64,000 nucleotides of DNA from Alteromonadaceae bacterium (GCA_013216015.1 JABSOI010000032.1:1-64000), one strand, 5' to 3'. Shown: positions 395 to 47,592, counted from the first letter of the stretch. Notes: generated from the letters alone by a model not told the origin. Program-made: numbers and translations.

Positions 395-1298
395 CTGGCT
401 GTGGGGTTTACCGCGAGAGCGGTTTAGTCCAAGCACGGTTATGGGGCTCTCTCCATTACCGTGCATGCGAGTTTCCCAGCACACGGCTCAAGCCTGCTTA
501 AGTCCAGCAATGGACCGACAATAGACTCAAAAATGAGTGGACGAGTATCCATTGCAAGGCTTTCGCCTTGCTATAGCGACCCGCCTTTATTGCCTTCGCA
601 ATACGCGTTTGCAGTCGAAAGACCTGTTGTTCCATGACTTGACTATTAATATCATGCCATTGTTGACCTGCCGAGGAGGCACCAGCATAAACTTCAGCCG
701 TCATTTGCGTTTCCTCATTATTTCGATTCTCCAAACTCTCTCACGATTTTAGACCAAATGGACGTCTGCTCACTTTCGTGCCGGATAACATTTAAACCCG
801 TATCCACGCGATTACAGCATGGCATTCGCTTCTTCCATCCTCCCAATCTGCACATCCATAGGTTCACTTTGCAGTAAACTGTCCCTTTGAGGGAGATGTA
901 CAGGGTTACCACGTTCCACCTTTGAAGCACGTTGGGTTAGGTGCCCGCTTTCGACCGGTCAGGACTGTTGGCCATGTGTGTCCAACAAAAAATAACACAC
1001 CTCCCGACGTTGCCTTTTGGCTCAAGTGTATCAACCTTTTTTTCACTTGTTTATCGTTACGGTCTTTATCACGGATTCAGTTAATTTCACCATACCAACT
1101 CTCTAGCACTCACCCGATCATGGTTATCAGGAGGGCGCTTGTCTCACGATTTGCACCCCGGTTACCAATTGATAACCTTCGTTACATTGTCCGAGCAGCT
1201 CTTTATTCATGCCCGTAGAGTCACCTGATGGCACAGGTGGTTTGATCAACATCCTCTGTTTTAAGCCAAACAACTTCGCAGGCGACCTCGTGTCGCAC
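395..1298 (-). mobile_element. Group II intron remnant with large internal deletion
   Basis: On the minus strand a GTGCGAC motif at 1298-1292, the usual 5' end of bacterial group II introns, opens about 590 nt of structured leader. The leader runs into the start of an intron-encoded reverse transcriptase at 704. At the other end, around 490-457, is a hairpin of the form GAGCCGTGTGC-TGGGAAACTC-GCATGCACGG that matches intron domain V, followed by further short hairpins (domain VI region). The 3' boundary near 395 is approximate. A full element would be about 2-2.5 kb; here the reverse transcriptase core and most of domain IV are missing. The element cannot encode its own mobility but might still splice if helped in trans. 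Confidence 0.75.
498..704 (-). pseudogene. Group II intron reverse transcriptase, N-terminal fragment
   Basis: From ATG 704 the product starts MTAEVYAGASSAGQQWHDIN and continues with VFRLQTRIAKAIKAGRYSKA. This is the conserved N-terminal (RVT_N-type) region of group II intron maturases. After LVHSF the match stops: a deletion joins it to a few unrelated codons and a stop at 498, directly followed by the intron domain V hairpin. The finger-palm motifs (including YADD), domain X and endonuclease are absent. About 68 residues remain of a typical 420-600. Upstream codons back to a TTG at 734 are open, but ATG 704 fits the family start. Confidence 0.8.
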
Positions 1299-1360
1299 AT
1301 TTGTATCGATAACGCCATGCTCTGGGGTAAATTTGTCCTACAGCAGTGTATAGTTATTCT
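1299..1360 (-). other. attC-like imperfect palindrome at the end of the Gabija-like operon
   Basis: Just past the helicase stop, the minus strand reads TAACTATACACTGCTGTAGG, then CAAATTTACCCCAGAGCATGGCG in two parts, then GGCGTTATCGATACAAA. The arms TGCTGTAGG and CCCCAGAGCA pair imperfectly and the end is GCGTTAT, as in the 3' half of integron attC sites. The same 17-base GGCGTTATCGATACAAA ends the attC-like site at 45028-45128. The group II intron begins right after it. It is shorter and less symmetrical than a canonical attC, so it is called attC-like only. Confidence 0.4.
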
Positions 1361-2505
1361 TTTTTCCATTCCGGCAATTTACATTTTTCAACTTGATTAT
1401 CCGGAAGAACAAAAGTTGCACTGTATCTGGCCCTAGTTATAGCTACATATAATTTGTTTTTTGATTCATCTGTTTTATCAGAATCAAAAACCCGATGTTC
1501 TCCCAAAACGAAACGAACATACGGCTTAGTTGGAATTATTAACGTCCGATCAAAACCAAGACCCTTTGACTTTCCGAAATTAACCTTTTTTATATTCATA
1601 TCATTGAACTGCTTACCAGAACTAACACCATATCTTAAAAGTACGGGTTGATGTTTGCTAATATAATCATCAACGTTCGATTCACGAACACAAAAAACAC
1701 CAACGTGATTCTTGATATGGTCTGGCACATCCACACTAGTTGATATTGTTCTTTTATAGCCTTCCCCTACATGAATTTGATCTGCATAATCGCATATAAC
1801 TTGCACTGATCTTCGGCTAATAGCTAAGTGCTCATCTTCAAATTTAATAGACTTAAACTTTTCAAGTTTTTTCTCGCTAGTTTTTGGTCCTTTCGAGGCT
1901 ACTGAAGTGTCATAAATTGTTTGTCTAAAGTCGCCCACGCAAGTAATCGCCAATGATTTTGATTTACTTAGCATTTTAAGAACTTCGTAATCCCACCCAA
2001 CAAGATCTTGAACCTCATCGAAATATAGATGTGTATATATGCTCTCTATGCGGTCTAGTACTTCATTTTCTCTCTCTTTCATTATTTTGAAAGCAAGCTT
2101 TGACAGGTAGGTGGTGTGTGCTTTCTTTTTACATTTTGTTAAGTAGTAATCAGGGTTTAAGTTTCCACAGTCTAAAAGCTCCTTTCTACCGAGAATCGTT
2201 CTTCCATTTCTTTTATGCGGATCACCATTACTATTAAAATTTATTGTTTCAATGCGATCACTAAAAAAACAACTTTGATATGGTCTTACAATATCTTCCA
2301 ATAAGAAACGGAAAAGTCCTTTCACAACAAATAGCTGGCCTTCAGAGCTAGTTGAAGTAAATCGTGAAAGTAGCTCTTTCTGATTATTTTCTGTATAAGT
2401 AACAACTAGAACTTTGTTTCCGTGCGCGACATGATTCTTCGCTTCAGAAATAATCCTGTGAGTCTTACCAGCCCCAGCTGATGCAATGATTAGTTTCCTA
2501 CTCAA
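1354..2505 (-). CDS. UvrD-like superfamily 1 helicase, GajB-like
   Basis: A 383-residue superfamily 1A helicase-like protein. Visible motifs: Walker A ASAGAGKT near residue 9, Walker B YFDEVQD near 161, motif III GDFRQTIYDT near 191, and motif VI KLYVAITRAR near 352. It is shorter than UvrD/Rep (about 700) and somewhat shorter than usual GajB (about 490), so accessory subdomains are reduced. The start is a TTG inside the end of the nuclease gene (8-nt overlap), implying translational coupling. In Gabija systems the GajB helicase partners the GajA nuclease and is thought to sense DNA ends or nucleotide depletion during phage infection. The assignment rests on gene pairing and domain types. Confidence 0.8.
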   Translation of the reverse strand: MSRKLIIASAGAGKTHRIISEAKNHVAHGNKVLVVTYTENNQKELLSRFTSTSSEGQLFVVKGLFRFLLEDIVRPYQSCFFSDRIETINFNSNGDPHKRNGRTILGRKELLDCGNLNPDYYLTKCKKKAHTTYLSKLAFKIMKERENEVLDRIESIYTHLYFDEVQDLVGWDYEVLKMLSKSKSLAITCVGDFRQTIYDTSVASKGPKTSEKKLEKFKSIKFEDEHLAISRRSVQVICDYADQIHVGEGYKRTISTSVDVPDHIKNHVGVFCVRESNVDDYISKHQPVLLRYGVSSGKQFNDMNIKKVNFGKSKGLGFDRTLIIPTKPYVRFVLGEHRVFDSDKTDESKNKLYVAITRARYSATFVLPDNQVEKCKLPEWKKE

Positions 2506-4147
2506 AACTAAGCGCCTTAAGGATAAACTCTGGGTACTTTATTTTCTGTTCAGCCTCGAATACTCTCATCGCTGAATCTACTTTCTTTTTTCCTGCCCCT
2601 CCCTCGTCTGCGTACCATTTTACTAAGAATTTTGATTTATCATCTAAAGACTTTTCATCATTGTATTTATTATAGGTCTGTGTAGAAAGGGTTATCTTTG
2701 CATAGCTATCAAGTTCCTTTTCTGACGATTTATTTGTAGATATCAAAACGGGTTCAAGAGAATACTGCTCGTTGTCTGGGGTAGCTAAAAAGTTTATCCA
2801 TTCACAATCGCCATATTTTTTGGAGTACTCACCGATATTGTTTTTATGATTTCCATCATTATCTTTAAGAACATTAACTCTAGTCCTCACTTTTTTTGCG
2901 ATTTCTAAGTAATTATTAAAGCCAATACCTCTAACAACAATAATATCAATTCCATCATCTTCTGGTAGTCGGTCATGTAGATCAAGATAGCTTCTCTTCA
3001 AAATCAACTCGTCTGAAGGTCCTTCGACCAAAACAATTTTTTGAGAAAGTACCACCCTCAGAGTGTCATAACCAGGTAATCTTTTTAAGCTTTTTGATAC
3101 ACTTTTATCTATTTCATTTAGCCTGATATAACTTTCATTGATGAGACATAGTTTTTCTAAGCTAAGCTTATTTAATACATAAGAGCTATGTGTTGTTATA
3201 AATAATTGTTTGTCTTGTCGTTGTTGTTCAATGTATTTGACGAGCTTTGCAAGATTAGTATGCGACAGGTGGTTTTCTGGCTCTTCTAAAAGGATAACAT
3301 CTACATTGCTAGCCTTATTTTGAATGGCTAGTTTTATCTGAATTTTATTTTGCTCACCTTTTCCAACTTGTGGAAGATTTACGTCATCAACTGACAATTG
3401 TAAACCTGTTTCAAAACTTGAAACAGATACATCTGCAATAATCTCAAGTTTCTTACTAGTGACAATATTCTCGTTATCTAGGTTTTCATTTATCAACTTA
3501 ACTTGAGGCTGGTCATTGAATAGTTGCTTCAATTGCCGATAGTTGACACTTAAAAGTGCTTGCTCTTCTTTTGTTAATGAGGAGTTGATTATTCTTGAAA
3601 TATACTGATTTCTACCATAAGCTGGGTGTAGCCTGCTAGGGTCTACAAACAAGCCATTCATTTTTTTGTTTAGAAACTTTATCTTATTCCATGCAAAGTC
3701 AACCCATTCAATTTTGTAAAACTCAACAGGGATAGACTTTATTGCATCAGGTGATTTAATGAACTCTTCGTAGACTGCTTGCAAGTCATCATCAAACTTG
3801 ATGGTCAACGAAATCCCATCACTATTTTTGTTTATTGAGTTATTTTGACCACGATACTCTGCTATACCATCTAAAAAGAGTTCAATTTTTATATATGGTA
3901 AGTTTTTCGAAGATTTGTTACTTTTTAAATATGTCCTTGTTGCATCAAGGTTGAATAACTCAGGTTTAATTTCTCCTGATAATGGTTTTCCTCGATAGCT
4001 ACAATTTAATGCTATTTCTATAGCCTCTTGGATTGTACTTTTTCCTGAATCGTTATCGCCTACCAGTATATTTAAGTCCTGATTGAAATCGAATTCACGA
4101 TCTGAAAATTTCTTAAAGTTTTTAATTATAAGTTTCTCTATGTGCAC
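2498..4147 (-). CDS. OLD-family ATPase/TOPRIM nuclease, GajA-like
   Basis: A 549-residue protein with an ABC-type ATPase followed by a TOPRIM nuclease. Walker A is GDNDSGKST near residue 30, the signature-like VGKGEQNK near 261, Walker B VDVILLEEPEN near 282, and the H-loop FITTHSS near 317. The TOPRIM part shows VLVEGPSDE (catalytic Glu near 375) and a KDNDG acidic motif near 428. Class 2 OLD nucleases sit next to a UvrD-like helicase, exactly as here, which is the Gabija arrangement. Translation starts at GTG 4147, preceded by AAGGA about 11 nt upstream. An alternative is an unnamed OLD/helicase pair that is not strictly Gabija. Expected role: ATP/NTP-gated DNA nicking on phage infection. 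Confidence 0.82.
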   Translation of the reverse strand: MHIEKLIIKNFKKFSDREFDFNQDLNILVGDNDSGKSTIQEAIEIALNCSYRGKPLSGEIKPELFNLDATRTYLKSNKSSKNLPYIKIELFLDGIAEYRGQNNSINKNSDGISLTIKFDDDLQAVYEEFIKSPDAIKSIPVEFYKIEWVDFAWNKIKFLNKKMNGLFVDPSRLHPAYGRNQYISRIINSSLTKEEQALLSVNYRQLKQLFNDQPQVKLINENLDNENIVTSKKLEIIADVSVSSFETGLQLSVDDVNLPQVGKGEQNKIQIKLAIQNKASNVDVILLEEPENHLSHTNLAKLVKYIEQQRQDKQLFITTHSSYVLNKLSLEKLCLINESYIRLNEIDKSVSKSLKRLPGYDTLRVVLSQKIVLVEGPSDELILKRSYLDLHDRLPEDDGIDIIVVRGIGFNNYLEIAKKVRTRVNVLKDNDGNHKNNIGEYSKKYGDCEWINFLATPDNEQYSLEPVLISTNKSSEKELDSYAKITLSTQTYNKYNDEKSLDDKSKFLVKWYADEGGAGKKKVDSAMRVFEAEQKIKYPEFILKALSFE

Positions 4148-4241
4148 TTCTTAGTCCTTATGCAATACCTAATTCACCTATTCAAGAGATTAACGTTTAT
4201 TGTGAGTACGTTTTTATAATATTCGCTCACAAAAAAATCAT

Positions 4242-4500
4242 TAATTAATGATGGTAATATCACATAATTTCAAAGCGTTAGAAAGTTATAAATAAAATAT
4301 TTTATTATATCTTTAATATTACGAAGACATCTTAGTAATACTTATTGTATAAACCAATGTTATACACCTTAAAATCAATTAAATACAACCATATAGGTAA
4401 GTATCCTGAGTGTTACTGAGGAGACCACCTAGTAACTGATTTATTCGAAAATATATTGCAAAAAATCAATCCTAATATCAGGAGTGCGAACGGTGCTAAC
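4242..4500 (-). repeat. Dispersed repeat copy C, inverted, upstream of the Gabija-like operon
   Basis: Read on the minus strand, this stretch carries pieces also found at 44371-44511 and 46741-46966: a CTTTGAAATTATGTGATATTACC-like block (4250-4272 region), GTTCGCA near 4487, TTTTTTGCAATATATTTTCG near 4445-4465, and GTTACTAGG-TGGTCTCC-TCAGTAAC at 4411-4436. Order and spacing are partly shuffled. It separates the defence operon from the next genes and carries its promoter region. No coding potential is seen. Confidence 0.55.
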
Positions 4501-4550
4501 CTCAGTGCTAAATAATATTTAATAAAATTTATTGTGACAGTGGCAATTTT

Positions 4551-44370: not shown

Positions 44371-44511
44371 TAATGCTTTGAAATTATGTGATCTTATCCA
44401 AAGGACTTCTTTGTTCGCATTAGAGACCTTAGCAATAAATTTTTTGCCATATATTTTCTAATGAATCTCATGTGTCATATTACTGAGAAGTCTCCATAAT
44501 AAGCGTTAGGG
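44371..44511 (+). repeat. Dispersed repeat copy A ending in an attC-like half-site
   Basis: Contains CTTTGAAATTATGTGATC, TTCTTTGTTCGCATTAGAGA, TTTTTTGCCATATATTTTCT and ends ATTACTGAGAAGTCTCCATA-ATAAGCGTTAGGG. The last part looks like the 3' half of an attC site (GTTAGGG at 44505-44511 as the R' box), directly upstream of the cassette-like gene at 44650. Copies: 46741-46966 (same strand), 4242-4500 and 46470-46545 (inverted). A sequence half-complementary to the ATAAGC end lies at 46255-46280. Confidence 0.65.
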
Positions 44512-44649
44512 TTAAGTTCTAAATGTAGTGAACATAAACTTAAAACACATTAAAAATGAAAGTTTATTAAACTGAGTTTAATTATTGTTGCAAAATAATA
44601 ACTCTTAGTTTATGATGTCATCTCTAATAATGTTACAGAGTGATAAACA

Positions 44650-45027
44650 ATGAAATCAGAAGAACTAAAGAATAAGTTAAACTCAATTAATGTGAGCCAG
44701 GTGAGATTCGCAATTCAATGCGGGGTTTCTGGAGTTCAGGTGTCAAAATGGGTTAATGGTCATGCAGATGTTCCAGAGTATGCAAAAACTATTATTAAGT
44801 TACTCGAAGAAAAAAAAGAGAAGTCTTCGATTGAAAAGCTTACTAATTTAGCCAATGCAGTCGCTGATGGACATTATACCTTGTGTAAATTTACAAATAA
44901 TTACCGCGTTGGTTTAGGGACTCCAAGTGAAAGGGATTCAATTAATAAAATGGTTGCAGGTAAGACTCTCAATGAAGCTATTGATAATTTGTTAAGTAAA
45001 GTTAGTGGTGTGACAGAAATTGATTAA
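44650..45027 (+). CDS. Cassette-borne helix-turn-helix protein
   Basis: A 125-residue protein. Residues 10-55 form a lambda-repressor-like HTH (NVSQVRFAIQCGVSGVQVSK then WVNGHADVPEYAKTIIKLLE); the rest, with YTLCKFTNNYRVGLGTPSER, is a short domain of unknown role. A GTTAGGG half-site lies 139 nt upstream and an attC-like site begins at its stop codon, so the gene is organised as an integron cassette of about 615 bp. Its product may bind DNA or act as a solitary antitoxin-like regulator; no partner is adjacent. Confidence 0.75.
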   Translation: MKSEELKNKLNSINVSQVRFAIQCGVSGVQVSKWVNGHADVPEYAKTIIKLLEEKKEKSSIEKLTNLANAVADGHYTLCKFTNNYRVGLGTPSERDSINKMVAGKTLNEAIDNLLSKVSGVTEID

Positions 45028-45128
45028 CCCTAACAAGCCAATCAAGCGGGACTAAAAACAGTTTTCTCGGTTTCGCTGCGCTACACATTGTAGCAAACAA
45101 TTTTTAGCCCCTTATTTGGGCGTTATCG
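45028..45128 (+). other. attC site resembling the Vibrio cholerae repeat
   Basis: CCCTAAC at 45028-45034 (R'' box) is followed by AAGCCAATCAAGCGGGACTA. The far side reads TTTTTAGCCCCTTATTTGGG then GTTATCG at 45122-45128 (R' box). The two arms are complementary over about 25 nt apart from extra bases, and the wording TAACAA-GC-CAATCAAG-CGGGAC...GCCCC-TT-GGGCGTTA closely follows VCR-type attC sites. It begins right at the stop of the HTH gene, the normal cassette position. Confidence 0.8.
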
Positions 45129-45269
45129 ATACAAAATCTAATCCGAATCAACGCTACAGGCTAAATGCTTTATGTCCGCTGTGTGGTAAAAGGGAATATT
45201 AGATTGTCCAATCTAAAATTCCCTAAATCATAAACTCCAAAATAAAATTTGAACAAATCCCCATACCCC

Positions 45270-45592
45270 CTAACCATTAGCAATATCCAAACTAATCTGT
45301 TCCATCACATCTTTATTGTTCCGTTGATACAAACGCAAATAAGTCTTAGACCCCGTAATGCTAATCGAATCAGCAATGGCTTCCATCGCTTTTAACCACT
45401 GTTCGTCTTTAATATCTAAACGGCGTAAACCTAAAATACGCGTTACTGAAATATTACCAGCTTTATCGGTTTGAAAGGCATGTTCAACTAACGCTTTAAT
45501 GTTGTCGTTACCACCTTGTGTCCAACGATGAATGCAATCATCAATTAGTGATTTAGCCACTTGTAAGCGTTCATCAAAGGTAAAACAAACAA
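45270..45592 (-). pseudogene. DUF3164 family (Mu-like phage) protein, C-terminal fragment
   Basis: About 107 residues, FTFDERLQVAKSLIDDCIHR through LGLRRLDIKDEQWLKAMEAI and DSISITGSKTYLRLYQR, match the C-terminal half of DUF3164 proteins, which are encoded in Mu-like transposable phages. The upstream boundary is exactly a REP-like repeat beginning at about 45593; the first six codons of the open frame come from the repeat. About half the protein is missing and no other Mu genes are in the window, so it is a relic. Confidence 0.75.
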
Positions 45593-45593
45593 G

Positions 45594-45736
45594 GGGGTCA
45601 AGTCGCATTTTTAAAGTATTGGCCTAAATAAAAAACAGGGAGCAAGTCGCTGACCGCAAGATTGTCGATATTATTCAAAATATCTTTAAAAATGCGACTT
45701 GACCCCTTTCTCATTTTAAAAATGCGACTTGACCCC
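45594..45736. repeat. REPIN-like cluster of GTCAAGTCGCATTTTTAAA units
   Basis: One unit on the plus strand (45594-45616) faces two units on the minus strand (45684-45706 and 45715-45736) around about 65 bp, so the outer pair can fold into a long hairpin. The unit and the following GGCCTAAATAAA are shared with 6224-6300. The cluster truncates the DUF3164 relic on one side and the attC of the inverted cassette on the other. Confidence 0.7.
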
Positions 45737-45737
45737 T

Positions 45738-45770
45738 TTCTCATTGTCCTTCTTAAACAGCTTGTTAGGC
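45738..45770 (-). other. Truncated attC of the inverted cassette
   Basis: On the minus strand GCCTAAC (45770-45764) overlaps the stop codon of the YcxB-like gene and continues AAGCTGTTTAAGAAGGACAA, the usual 5' arm of attC sites (GCCTAACAAGCTGTTTAAG-GGA). The 3' arm is absent because the REPIN-like cluster starts here. Confidence 0.7.
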
Positions 45771-46229
45771 ATTTGTTTGCACGACAGTCTTAAATTCTGT
45801 TAACACACTTTCGTTGGAAAATGCTCGTTTAGGTATGCACATAAAGTTACCTGCATTAGACAATACGAATAGATATTTGTCACTTTCCTCAATCCCACCA
45901 ACCTGCTTCCAGTCGATTAGTTTATTTTTAACTCCAATTGAGACATCCATTCCTTTGGCAGATACAGAAATCGTTTTAGACCCTTTCTTTGCCATTTTAC
46001 GGGCAAGAAAGATAACCATAACTGGATATATACAAACAAAAACAACACCAATACAAATAGAATATATTGAAATTGATTTGCTAATAGCTAATTCAATTAG
46101 CATTGGGAATATTAAAAAAAATAAAGCATGGACTAATACTTTTTTTAGATAGACCTTCGAAGTTCTCAACATAAGCCAATATGAATCTATAACTTCCTTA
46201 TCGCTTACTTCATAATTTACAGATGCCAT
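45765..46229 (-). CDS. YcxB-like membrane protein in an inverted gene cassette
   Basis: A 154-residue protein: an N-terminal cytoplasmic strand, two membrane segments (VLVHALFFLIFPMLIELAIS, then ICIGVVFVCIYPVMVIFLA) and a C-terminal domain with VSAKGMDVSIGVKNKLIDWK and GIEESDKYLFVLSNAGNFMC, the YcxB-like pattern. The start is ATG 46229. A GTTAGGC box lies 20 nt upstream on the minus strand (46255-46249) and GCCTAAC overlaps the stop, so the gene with its short leader is a typical integron cassette, but opposite in direction to the neighbouring ones. Function unknown. Confidence 0.75.
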   Translation of the reverse strand: MASVNYEVSDKEVIDSYWLMLRTSKVYLKKVLVHALFFLIFPMLIELAISKSISIYSICIGVVFVCIYPVMVIFLARKMAKKGSKTISVSAKGMDVSIGVKNKLIDWKQVGGIEESDKYLFVLSNAGNFMCIPKRAFSNESVLTEFKTVVQTNA

Positions 46230-46981
46230 ACTACCCTCTGATTAAACTGCCTAACAGCTTATTATGTAGACGTCTCAGTAACTCCCATCTACTTGATTAT
46301 TGAATAAAGTAACTCAATATTCTTTAATTTCAAAGTCTTATTATTTTGTTATAGGTGTTTTTTATGGGCAGCTCAGGTTATTACTGATATGTATCAGTAA
46401 TAACCTGATAGAAATAACACGTTAATTACATTATTTTCAAATACTTAAAGGAAATGGCGCACTGGTCGACGTGTGTTACTGAGAAGTCTCAGTAACACAC
46501 ATGAATTATTCATTAGAAAATATATCTCAAAACTTCACAACGCTTAAAATCCAATATTTACAGTCTAAGGCGCTTTGGGGCGTTAGCGCCATAGCTAATT
46601 TATGTAGATGTCAGCTATATCTGGAAATAGGGAGCACAATTCTAGCGTTTTTTAATCAGAATTTTTAGTCAGAAATGTGGTAACCACTGTCCTTCAGCTA
46701 TGAATTTATCAAATTATAAATTTTTATCACCTGTTACCTTGGTCCAAAGGTCTCTTTAGTTCGCATTGGAGACATTAGCATTTAATTTTTTGCCATATAT
46801 TTTCTAATGAATATTTTATGTCATGTTACTGAGCTGGCTTAGTAACATCCTACTTTTGTTAAAATATTGGTTGTAGTGGTTTCTAACGCTTTGAATTTAT
46901 GATATATTAATGTGATTTAAATTATAGAATGGTCATTACTGAGCTGGCTCCATAATAAGCGGTTACAAGGATCGTCTGACC
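46230..46981. repeat. Inter-cassette region with attC-like half-sites and dispersed repeats
   Basis: No gene is seen. The outer ends are inverted to each other: GCTTATTATGTAGACG-TCTCAGTAAC at 46256-46281 and ATTACTGAG-CTGGCTCCATA-ATAAGC at 46935-46960. Repeat copy D (inverted, 46470-46545, with TTATTCATTAGAAAATATAT) and copy B (46741-46850, with TTTGCCATATATTTTCTAATG) lie inside, plus GTTACTGAG palindromes at 46475-46497 and 46824-46846, and a GGCGCTTTGGGGCGTTAGCG block at 46571-46590 that recurs at 47711. It is either a composite of attC-type sites or a decayed element of about 700 bp. Confidence 0.6.
46373..46408. repeat. Perfect 17-bp hairpin
   Basis: TCAGGTTATTACTGATA at 46373-46389 and its exact reverse complement at 46392-46408 with a two-base spacer. 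It has no U-tract. The TTACTGA core echoes the TTACTGAG palindromes of the surrounding repeats. Confidence 0.7.
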
Positions 46982-47512
46982 ATGCGCATATTTTATATTC
47001 TAGTTTTAACCTATCTACTTGTAAGTTGCTTATCTTTAAAACAGAATAATATTGAAATATCGAATCATATAGCTGATTTAAAAAGAATTATATCAAAACC
47101 AATCTTTAATAAATCATCAAAAACTATTATCCATGAGATTGAACTATGTAAGGTTGGCTTTTCATCGCAATGGTCAAGTACAGTAAGTAAGCGAAAGGGT
47201 TTTCATTCTGTAAAAACAACAGTTGTAATTGATTTTATAAATAATTATGAGAACTCACTTTTCATTTCTGCGCATTATGAAACAGGAGATGGAATTACAA
47301 TCCAAATATGGGGTGATTTAATAGAGATCAACTTATTTGAAGAAGTGGAAGTTAAAAAAGTTACATTAATCGATTCTAATTCGGATAAAAATATAACCAA
47401 TTATAATACCGATTATGTTTCAATAGGCGTATCTGACCCAAGTAATATCGAGAAAATCTCAGAGTTATTAGATGTACTTAGTTTAATTTCGACTAGTTGT
47501 AAATCCTTGTAA
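46982..47512 (+). CDS. Putative lipoprotein in a cassette-like unit
   Basis: A 176-residue protein with a short signal ending in a lipobox (YILVLTYLLVSC, Cys16), then a soluble beta-rich domain (ISAHYETGDGITIQIWGDLI) and no further membrane segments. An attC-like end (ATAAGCGGTTACAAGG) lies about 20 nt upstream and an attC-like palindrome begins at its stop, so it is arranged like the HTH gene at 44650 and on the same strand. No family recognised. It would be an inner- or outer-membrane-anchored periplasmic protein. Confidence 0.65.
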   Translation: MRIFYILVLTYLLVSCLSLKQNNIEISNHIADLKRIISKPIFNKSSKTIIHEIELCKVGFSSQWSSTVSKRKGFHSVKTTVVIDFINNYENSLFISAHYETGDGITIQIWGDLIEINLFEEVEVKKVTLIDSNSDKNITNYNTDYVSIGVSDPSNIEKISELLDVLSLISTSCKSL

Positions 47513-47592
47513 CAAGGCGTTCAAACGGACACGTAACAGCTGGCTGTTGTTCGTGCCTCACACATTTTAGCCAGCTATTAGGGGTATTGCGC
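47508..47592 (+). other. Degenerate attC-like site after the lipoprotein gene
   Basis: From the stop codon: TGTAACAAGGCGTTCAAACG, then the arm CAGCTGGCT near 47542, then the arm AGCCAGCTATTAGGGG near 47568-47583. TAACAAGGCGTTCAA-CGGA is typical of Vibrio/Shewanella attC sites, but the R' box reads GGTATTG instead of GCGTTAG, so it is probably no longer a good substrate. Confidence 0.5.

Follow-up and report, generated by a model that had tools for sequence, protein, structure and literature searches.

Candidate units of a dispersed family of integrase-deleted mini-integrons in an Alteromonadaceae genome

How did integron cassettes come to lie in a chromosomal region that has no integron integrase? 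This question is raised by the window analysed here, a stretch of 64,000 nucleotides (positions 1-64000 of contig C168) from a 6.45-Mb gammaproteobacterial genome that is assembled in 240 contigs and 99.9% complete; repeat and attC copy numbers for this genome are lower bounds. The initial annotation described three genes of the window as cassettes of one orphan array in decay (a CALIN), one of them inverted, with loose GTTRRRY boxes as cassette starts, an attC site at each stop codon and no integrase gene (intI).

Cassette genes and attC sites

The three reading frames are present as described. The HTH-like gene (44650-45027, + strand) encodes 125 aa, the YcxB-like gene (45765-46229, - strand) 154 aa with a PF14317 domain (E 1.6e-7), and the lipoprotein-like gene (46982-47512, + strand) 176 aa with a hydrophobic start and an LVSC motif, as judged by eye. 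Neither the HTH-like nor the lipoprotein-like protein has a Pfam match, and no plasmid homologue of the latter was found. Homologues outside an attC context had been counted in advance against the cassette reading. They are seen for two of the genes, on the Moritella plasmid pMR24b (HTH, 60%) and in genome G098 (YcxB, 64%), both with no attC match nearby. They do not refute cassette status, because cassettes can carry genes found elsewhere.

We searched for attC sites with a covariance model (R1) whose input was 26 attCs solely from integrase-bearing relatives, with the window's genome left out; in these training sites, pairing is kept through double changes in 16 of 26 pairs. The attC of the HTH cassette (45028-45128, + strand) is complete: it covers model positions 1-101 end to end with exact ends (85.4 bits, E 6.7e-19), and the site called here by the initial annotation withstood the test against an attC model. 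The G|TT crossover lies at 45122/45123. Folded as single-strand DNA, the site has z-scores of -2.5/-2.8, and it is 76-85% identical to DNA of Pseudoalteromonas, Aliivibrio and Vibrio blaVMB-1 plasmids.

The other two sites are damaged. The next R1 match in the window belongs to the attC of the lipoprotein cassette (47510-47584, + strand), which has lost its 3' half (match 47529-47584, model positions 24-80, 29.9 bits). The YcxB cassette retains an attC start, GCCTAACAAGCTGTTTAAGAAGGAC (45740-45772, - strand), that stops after about 30 nt at an inverted repeat, where a group of 26-bp inverted and direct repeats (45591-45739, from a repeat search) cuts the site; the remnant is below R1 detection. 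Only one of the three attCs is therefore complete, and the claim of an attC at every stop holds in full for the HTH gene, with a truncated site and a short remnant at the others. Next to these repeats lies the Mu-phage debris that had been noticed, a DUF3164 (Mu-type) gene fragment at 45270-45608 on the - strand (PF11363, E 1.8e-46, profile positions 93-194 of 194). Local decay, seen as truncated attCs and insertions, is thus borne out. Between 45 and 47.6 kb there are one complete and one partial attC and no intI, where the CALIN criterion asks for two or more attC.

Further attC sites occur across the genome: R1 has at least 46 matches with E<=1, usually single ones, distributed over about 33 contigs. 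On 129 matches the stem pairs covary far above shuffles and slides (0 of 500 shuffles were as good), in an alignment that was fitted to the model, so that the count is biased towards it.

Repeats flanking the cassettes

The boxes upstream of the three genes have 25 bases in common, TTACTGAGnnnnCTnCATAATAAGC, followed by GTTA. Their consensus, CATAATAAGC(T/G)G|TTA, lies near 44480-44506 (+), 46281-46254 (-) and 46936-46961 (+). Profile searches showed that each box terminates, on the right, a repeat about 340 bp long (338 bp), so the boxes are not loose cassette starts of one array. The part of this repeat upstream of a cassette is called the Head and the part that follows an attC the Tail; in tandem units the two abut and form the full repeat.

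Head A (44396-44506, + strand), upstream of the HTH gene, is a short form with the right end CATAATAAGCG|TTAGG (nhmmer 44397-44506 against HMM positions 114-223, E 1.4e-26; R2 21.6 bits). It joins a segment of the intI 3' flank to the right end of attI at the shared junction, located at 44451, and the middle part with the putative promoter Pc is absent. Head B (46257-46536, - strand; R2, nhmmer and junction), upstream of the YcxB gene, ends in CATAATAAGCTG|TTAGGC and contains the intI 3' flank and the attI/putative Pc region (R2 46257-46405, 67 bits, E 9e-20). Head C (46668-46961, + strand), upstream of the lipoprotein-like gene, has the right end CATAATAAGCG|GTTA and is nearly full (HMM positions 52-338, nhmmer E 5e-53; R2 46819-46960, 81 bits, E 3.8e-24). 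The window holds a fourth unit, led by Head D (4194-4516, - strand), which was placed by R2 (4196-4342, 50 bits, E 1.7e-14), nhmmer (4348-4516) and the junction.

The identity of the repeat follows from relatives that keep an integrase. Genome G001, of the same genus, has an intact integron made up of intI, a non-coding stretch and six attC cassettes, and the non-coding stretch beside intI corresponds to the right half of the repeat (Head HMM, E 7e-17). Of the 16 closest intI loci, 12 also have a Head HMM match in the attI region immediately upstream of intI, with E-values down to 1e-24. Over their full length, 18 dispersed Head copies can be aligned with 8 regions adjacent to intI, so copies of attI stand in front of the genes; the Heads are putative attI sites by homology. 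A promoter consensus scan of the Heads gave no site above shuffles, so Pc in the Head is termed putative, and the region is still conserved with true attI loci. We also considered whether the repeat could itself be a cassette that ends on the right in an attC of its own and rejected this, as neither an attC-like fold nor a model match was found there.

A 20-bp dyad, TTACTGAGnnnnCTCAGTAA, with four variable bases in the middle, is present two or three times per attI region, with one copy overlapping the attI core. Examples are located at 46476-46495 and 46826-46845 in the window and at 3715-3950 in locus L143. It is a candidate site for IntI or a regulator.

The Tail, GTTATCGATACAAAATCTAATCC..., follows the last attC, that of the HTH cassette (45122-45208, + strand; nhmmer HMM positions 1-86, E 6e-18). 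When up to 3 mismatches are allowed, its motif is found at least 20 times in the genome (reversed control pattern, 0); it occurs at 56 or more loci in named genomes, nearly all of them Colwellia; the few remaining ones are in Thalassotalea, Thalassomonas and Paraglaciecola. Among 80 Tails from named loci, 43 start within 10 bases of a same-strand attC crossover (chance, 0.7%), and 37 have no detectable attC. At several loci (L122 2531-2599, L032, L071) the place expected for attC just before the Tail is occupied by another repeat, GGGTAGCCGGAGGTATCTAGCCTCCAGCCCC...CACAGGGC. Across 57 Tails, positions 24-48 of the Tail HMM form a segment of about 25 nt between conserved blocks; several distinct sequence types of this segment can be told apart, and some of them contain inverted repeats.

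The fourth unit carries a Gabija defence system. Head D is followed by gajA (2498-4147, - strand; OLD-type ATPase/TOPRIM; PADLOC GajA, E 1.7e-194), gajB (1354-2505, - strand; UvrD-like helicase; PADLOC GajB, E 1.2e-107), a short hairpin, attC-like and located at the stop codon of gajB (1307-1359, - strand; R1 17.8 bits, E 5e-4 for 351 bases searched) and the first 14 nt of a Tail, GTTATCGATACAAA (1300-1313, - strand). A group II intron whose start is apparently at 1298 (Rfam RF02012 at 1106-1240) interrupts the Tail there. Group II introns (GTGCGAC...) appear to start right after GTTATCGATACAAA(A) in two separate Tails, that of the window (1100-1313, - strand) and L044/L227 on contig C12 of the same genome; the Tail start, some 14-15 nt past the attC crossover, may be a target of such introns. 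In a set of 53 proteins, mostly cassette ORFs of Head-led units, PADLOC matches included ThsB and others; in the window's genome, NsnA is found in contig C26 and a caspase-type match in C221.

Architecture, dispersal and origin of the units

The common order is Head, one or more cassettes, attC and Tail, and units of this form are dispersed without intI in the window's genome and in Colwellia relatives. Same-strand attC lies within 3 kb downstream of 19 of 25 Heads. Units with a single cassette include the HTH unit of the window and one on contig C227 of the same genome; units with more than 20 cassettes are also seen (G009, L199), and at L199 a Head, over 20 attCs and a Tail are present and intI is absent. 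The idea of a spacer between every cassette was dropped, as L121 and L199 have many cassettes per Head. The three genes of the window represent three Head-led units and thus adjacent units in opposite orientation: the YcxB gene does lie on the other strand, and this is better read as a unit of its own than as a cassette inverted within an array.

In the single-contig genomes G154, G066, G133 and G009, several Heads are hundreds of kb to Mb apart. Only one or two of them adjoin an intI; in G009 a further intI lies about 450 kb away from the largest array. As a negative control, three other family genomes are without Heads. Two neighbouring genes of G009 have between them 4.2 kb that include a Head and three attCs; in four congeners the corresponding gap measures 51-161 bp, and by this comparison the stretch is an insertion at a site empty in those four. 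On each side it extends past the unit by roughly 150-300 bases. In this one case we found neither a clean target duplication nor an insertion with exactly the ends of the unit. Between the outer arms of Head and of Tail there is a weak inverted similarity, which 167 of 20,000 random segments match as well. Separately, 4,761 bases of locus L189 (5156-9916, contig C47 of the window's genome) are 99.98% identical to L089, a scaffold of the metagenome-assembled genome (MAG) 'Alteromonadaceae bacterium DT_5'; recent transfer, a shared strain and MAG contamination are candidate readings.

The ends of the units bear on an alternative that takes the 338-bp Tail-Head repeat for a cassette without a gene but with a promoter. 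It would have G|TT crossovers as its borders and be mobilized by IntI (attC x attI), at times also into non-classical genomic sites (attG). In the tandem arrays L122, L108 and L199 the left border of the repeat is indeed the GTT of an attC, and its right border is the G|TT belonging to the following gene. Cassettes of the delta-attI type work with IntI1 (PMC12901181), and insertion at attG has been described (Loot 2024, as cited in PMC12901181). Isolated units, however, have both their ends close to the centre of the Tail-Head junction instead of at G|TT, and we regard this alternative as unlikely.

Integron integrases belong to family TIGR02249, for which nothing in the genome comes near the 265-bit cut-off (best match 82 bits, a fragment); the absence of intI noted for the window extends to the whole genome. 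The family is above cut-off in 40 of 60 relatives, and a homologue of the G001 intI is present at E<=1e-80 in 65 of 197 family genomes. Candidate intI pseudogenes at C123/C205 and at 26-265 of the window were rejected as other tyrosine recombinases (~30% identity) or short fragments. The window begins with the N-terminal end of a tyrosine recombinase (2-283, - strand), cut by the contig end.

What became of intI is suggested by the left part of the Head, segment C. In the Colwellia loci L105 and L131, it directly follows the stop codon of a truncated intI, and is therefore the intI 3' flank there. One common junction, ATATTTTCTAATGAAT-n13-TTACTGAG, with about constant spacing, joins this flank to attI in the window's four units and in dozens of Heads across many genomes, which argues that the Heads are intI-deleted platforms. 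The simplest reading of these sequences is that intI was probably deleted once and that the Heads then multiplied.

This junction also weighs on the reading as an ordinary CALIN, that is, one large chromosomal integron that lost intI and was then broken up by rearrangement. The missing intI, the truncated attCs, the insertion debris and the 240 contigs of the genome speak for it, and attC cassettes without an integrase, as initially annotated, are present. Breakage would spread attCs, however, and yields neither many attI copies nor one junction in many genomes; copies of the attI region head the genes, a Tail follows the HTH cassette, and isolated Heads also occur in single-contig genomes with an intact integron. 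We consider this reading improbable. The view that cassettes entered singly at attG sites, beside unrelated REP- or MITE-type repeats that settle near attC hairpins, draws on repeat arms found alone and on group II introns that, in two loci, occupy an identical position behind attC. It is disfavoured as very improbable, because a dozen integrons have the right half of the repeat next to intI as their attI region and two loci have segment C as the 3' flank of the integrase gene.

We therefore favour, as fairly probable, the reading of the region as units of a dispersed family of intI-deleted mini-integrons. The Head would be the 3' flank of the integrase gene fused to its attI/Pc region, with intI itself deleted, and the Tail the sequence past the attI crossover once cassettes are in place; a Tail after attC could alternatively stem from an element inserting next to attC. 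One ancestral platform would have lost intI, and its copies would have multiplied across chromosomes as a non-autonomous element. Each copy would have been loaded with cassettes at the G|TT of attI by IntI acting in trans from a complete integron, of the kind kept in sister lineages. The putative Pc region of the Head would drive the cassettes, Head A being without this part. With IntI gone from the window's genome, the units would now be fixed, partly broken and decaying; expression of their cargo (Gabija, HTH, YcxB, lipoprotein) may continue. More tentatively, and with a chance that we place slightly below even, the family may act as a distributed integron: a single IntI would work in trans on many attI platforms, spread as non-autonomous elements after one intI deletion, and each captured cassette would gain a first-position slot and a promoter at its own locus.

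Comparison with known systems

Integrons are described with one attI by the integrase, and the cassettes nearest attI are best expressed. If the proposal is true, many attI platforms per genome would relax the first-position limit, and some 'orphan' attC clusters would be loaded platforms and not wreckage. Standard annotation seeks intI and attC and not attI copies of this kind; it would overlook such units or list them as CALINs. As the cargo includes defence genes (Gabija, and the NsnA and ThsB matches), the units bear on how phage defences are stored and deployed in marine bacteria. In the open-access literature searched for Colwellia integrons and multiple attI, we found no account of dispersed attI platforms, which does not prove its absence.

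MITEs are non-autonomous internal-deletion elements, in which one deletion removes the enzyme gene and many copies follow. The Heads resemble them as an internal-deletion derivative in many copies, with the C-attI junction common to dozens, and differ in carrying cassettes and in having no proven terminal repeats or target duplications. Integrons typically contain one attI, beside the integrase (PMC9024848). Sedentary chromosomal integrons share with the units the attI region, the attC cassettes and their order and orientation within a unit, whereas here intI is deleted from each unit and a genome has many platforms. CALINs and single attC sites without integrase, as defined by IntegronFinder, likewise consist of attC cassettes with no neighbouring intI; in the present units a copy of attI stands at the head and a conserved Tail often closes the unit.

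The delta-attI-type cassettes of mobile integrons also place extra attI-derived sites inside cassette arrays (PMC12901181). In these, a piece of attI replaces attC at the 3' end of the cassette (PMC12901181), whereas here attI is upstream, the attC of the HTH cassette is normal and the copies are chromosome-wide, which sets the units outside that class. Insertion at attG sites (Loot et al. 2024, 10.1038/s41564-023-01548-y), in the part of that work reported in PMC12901181, similarly disperses cassettes outside the integron. The attG sites are described there as divergent from classical att sites, while the left neighbour in our units is a copy of one attI repeat. To the extent covered by that account, delta-attI-type cassettes and attG insertions are the nearest precedents for these units, with a different layout.
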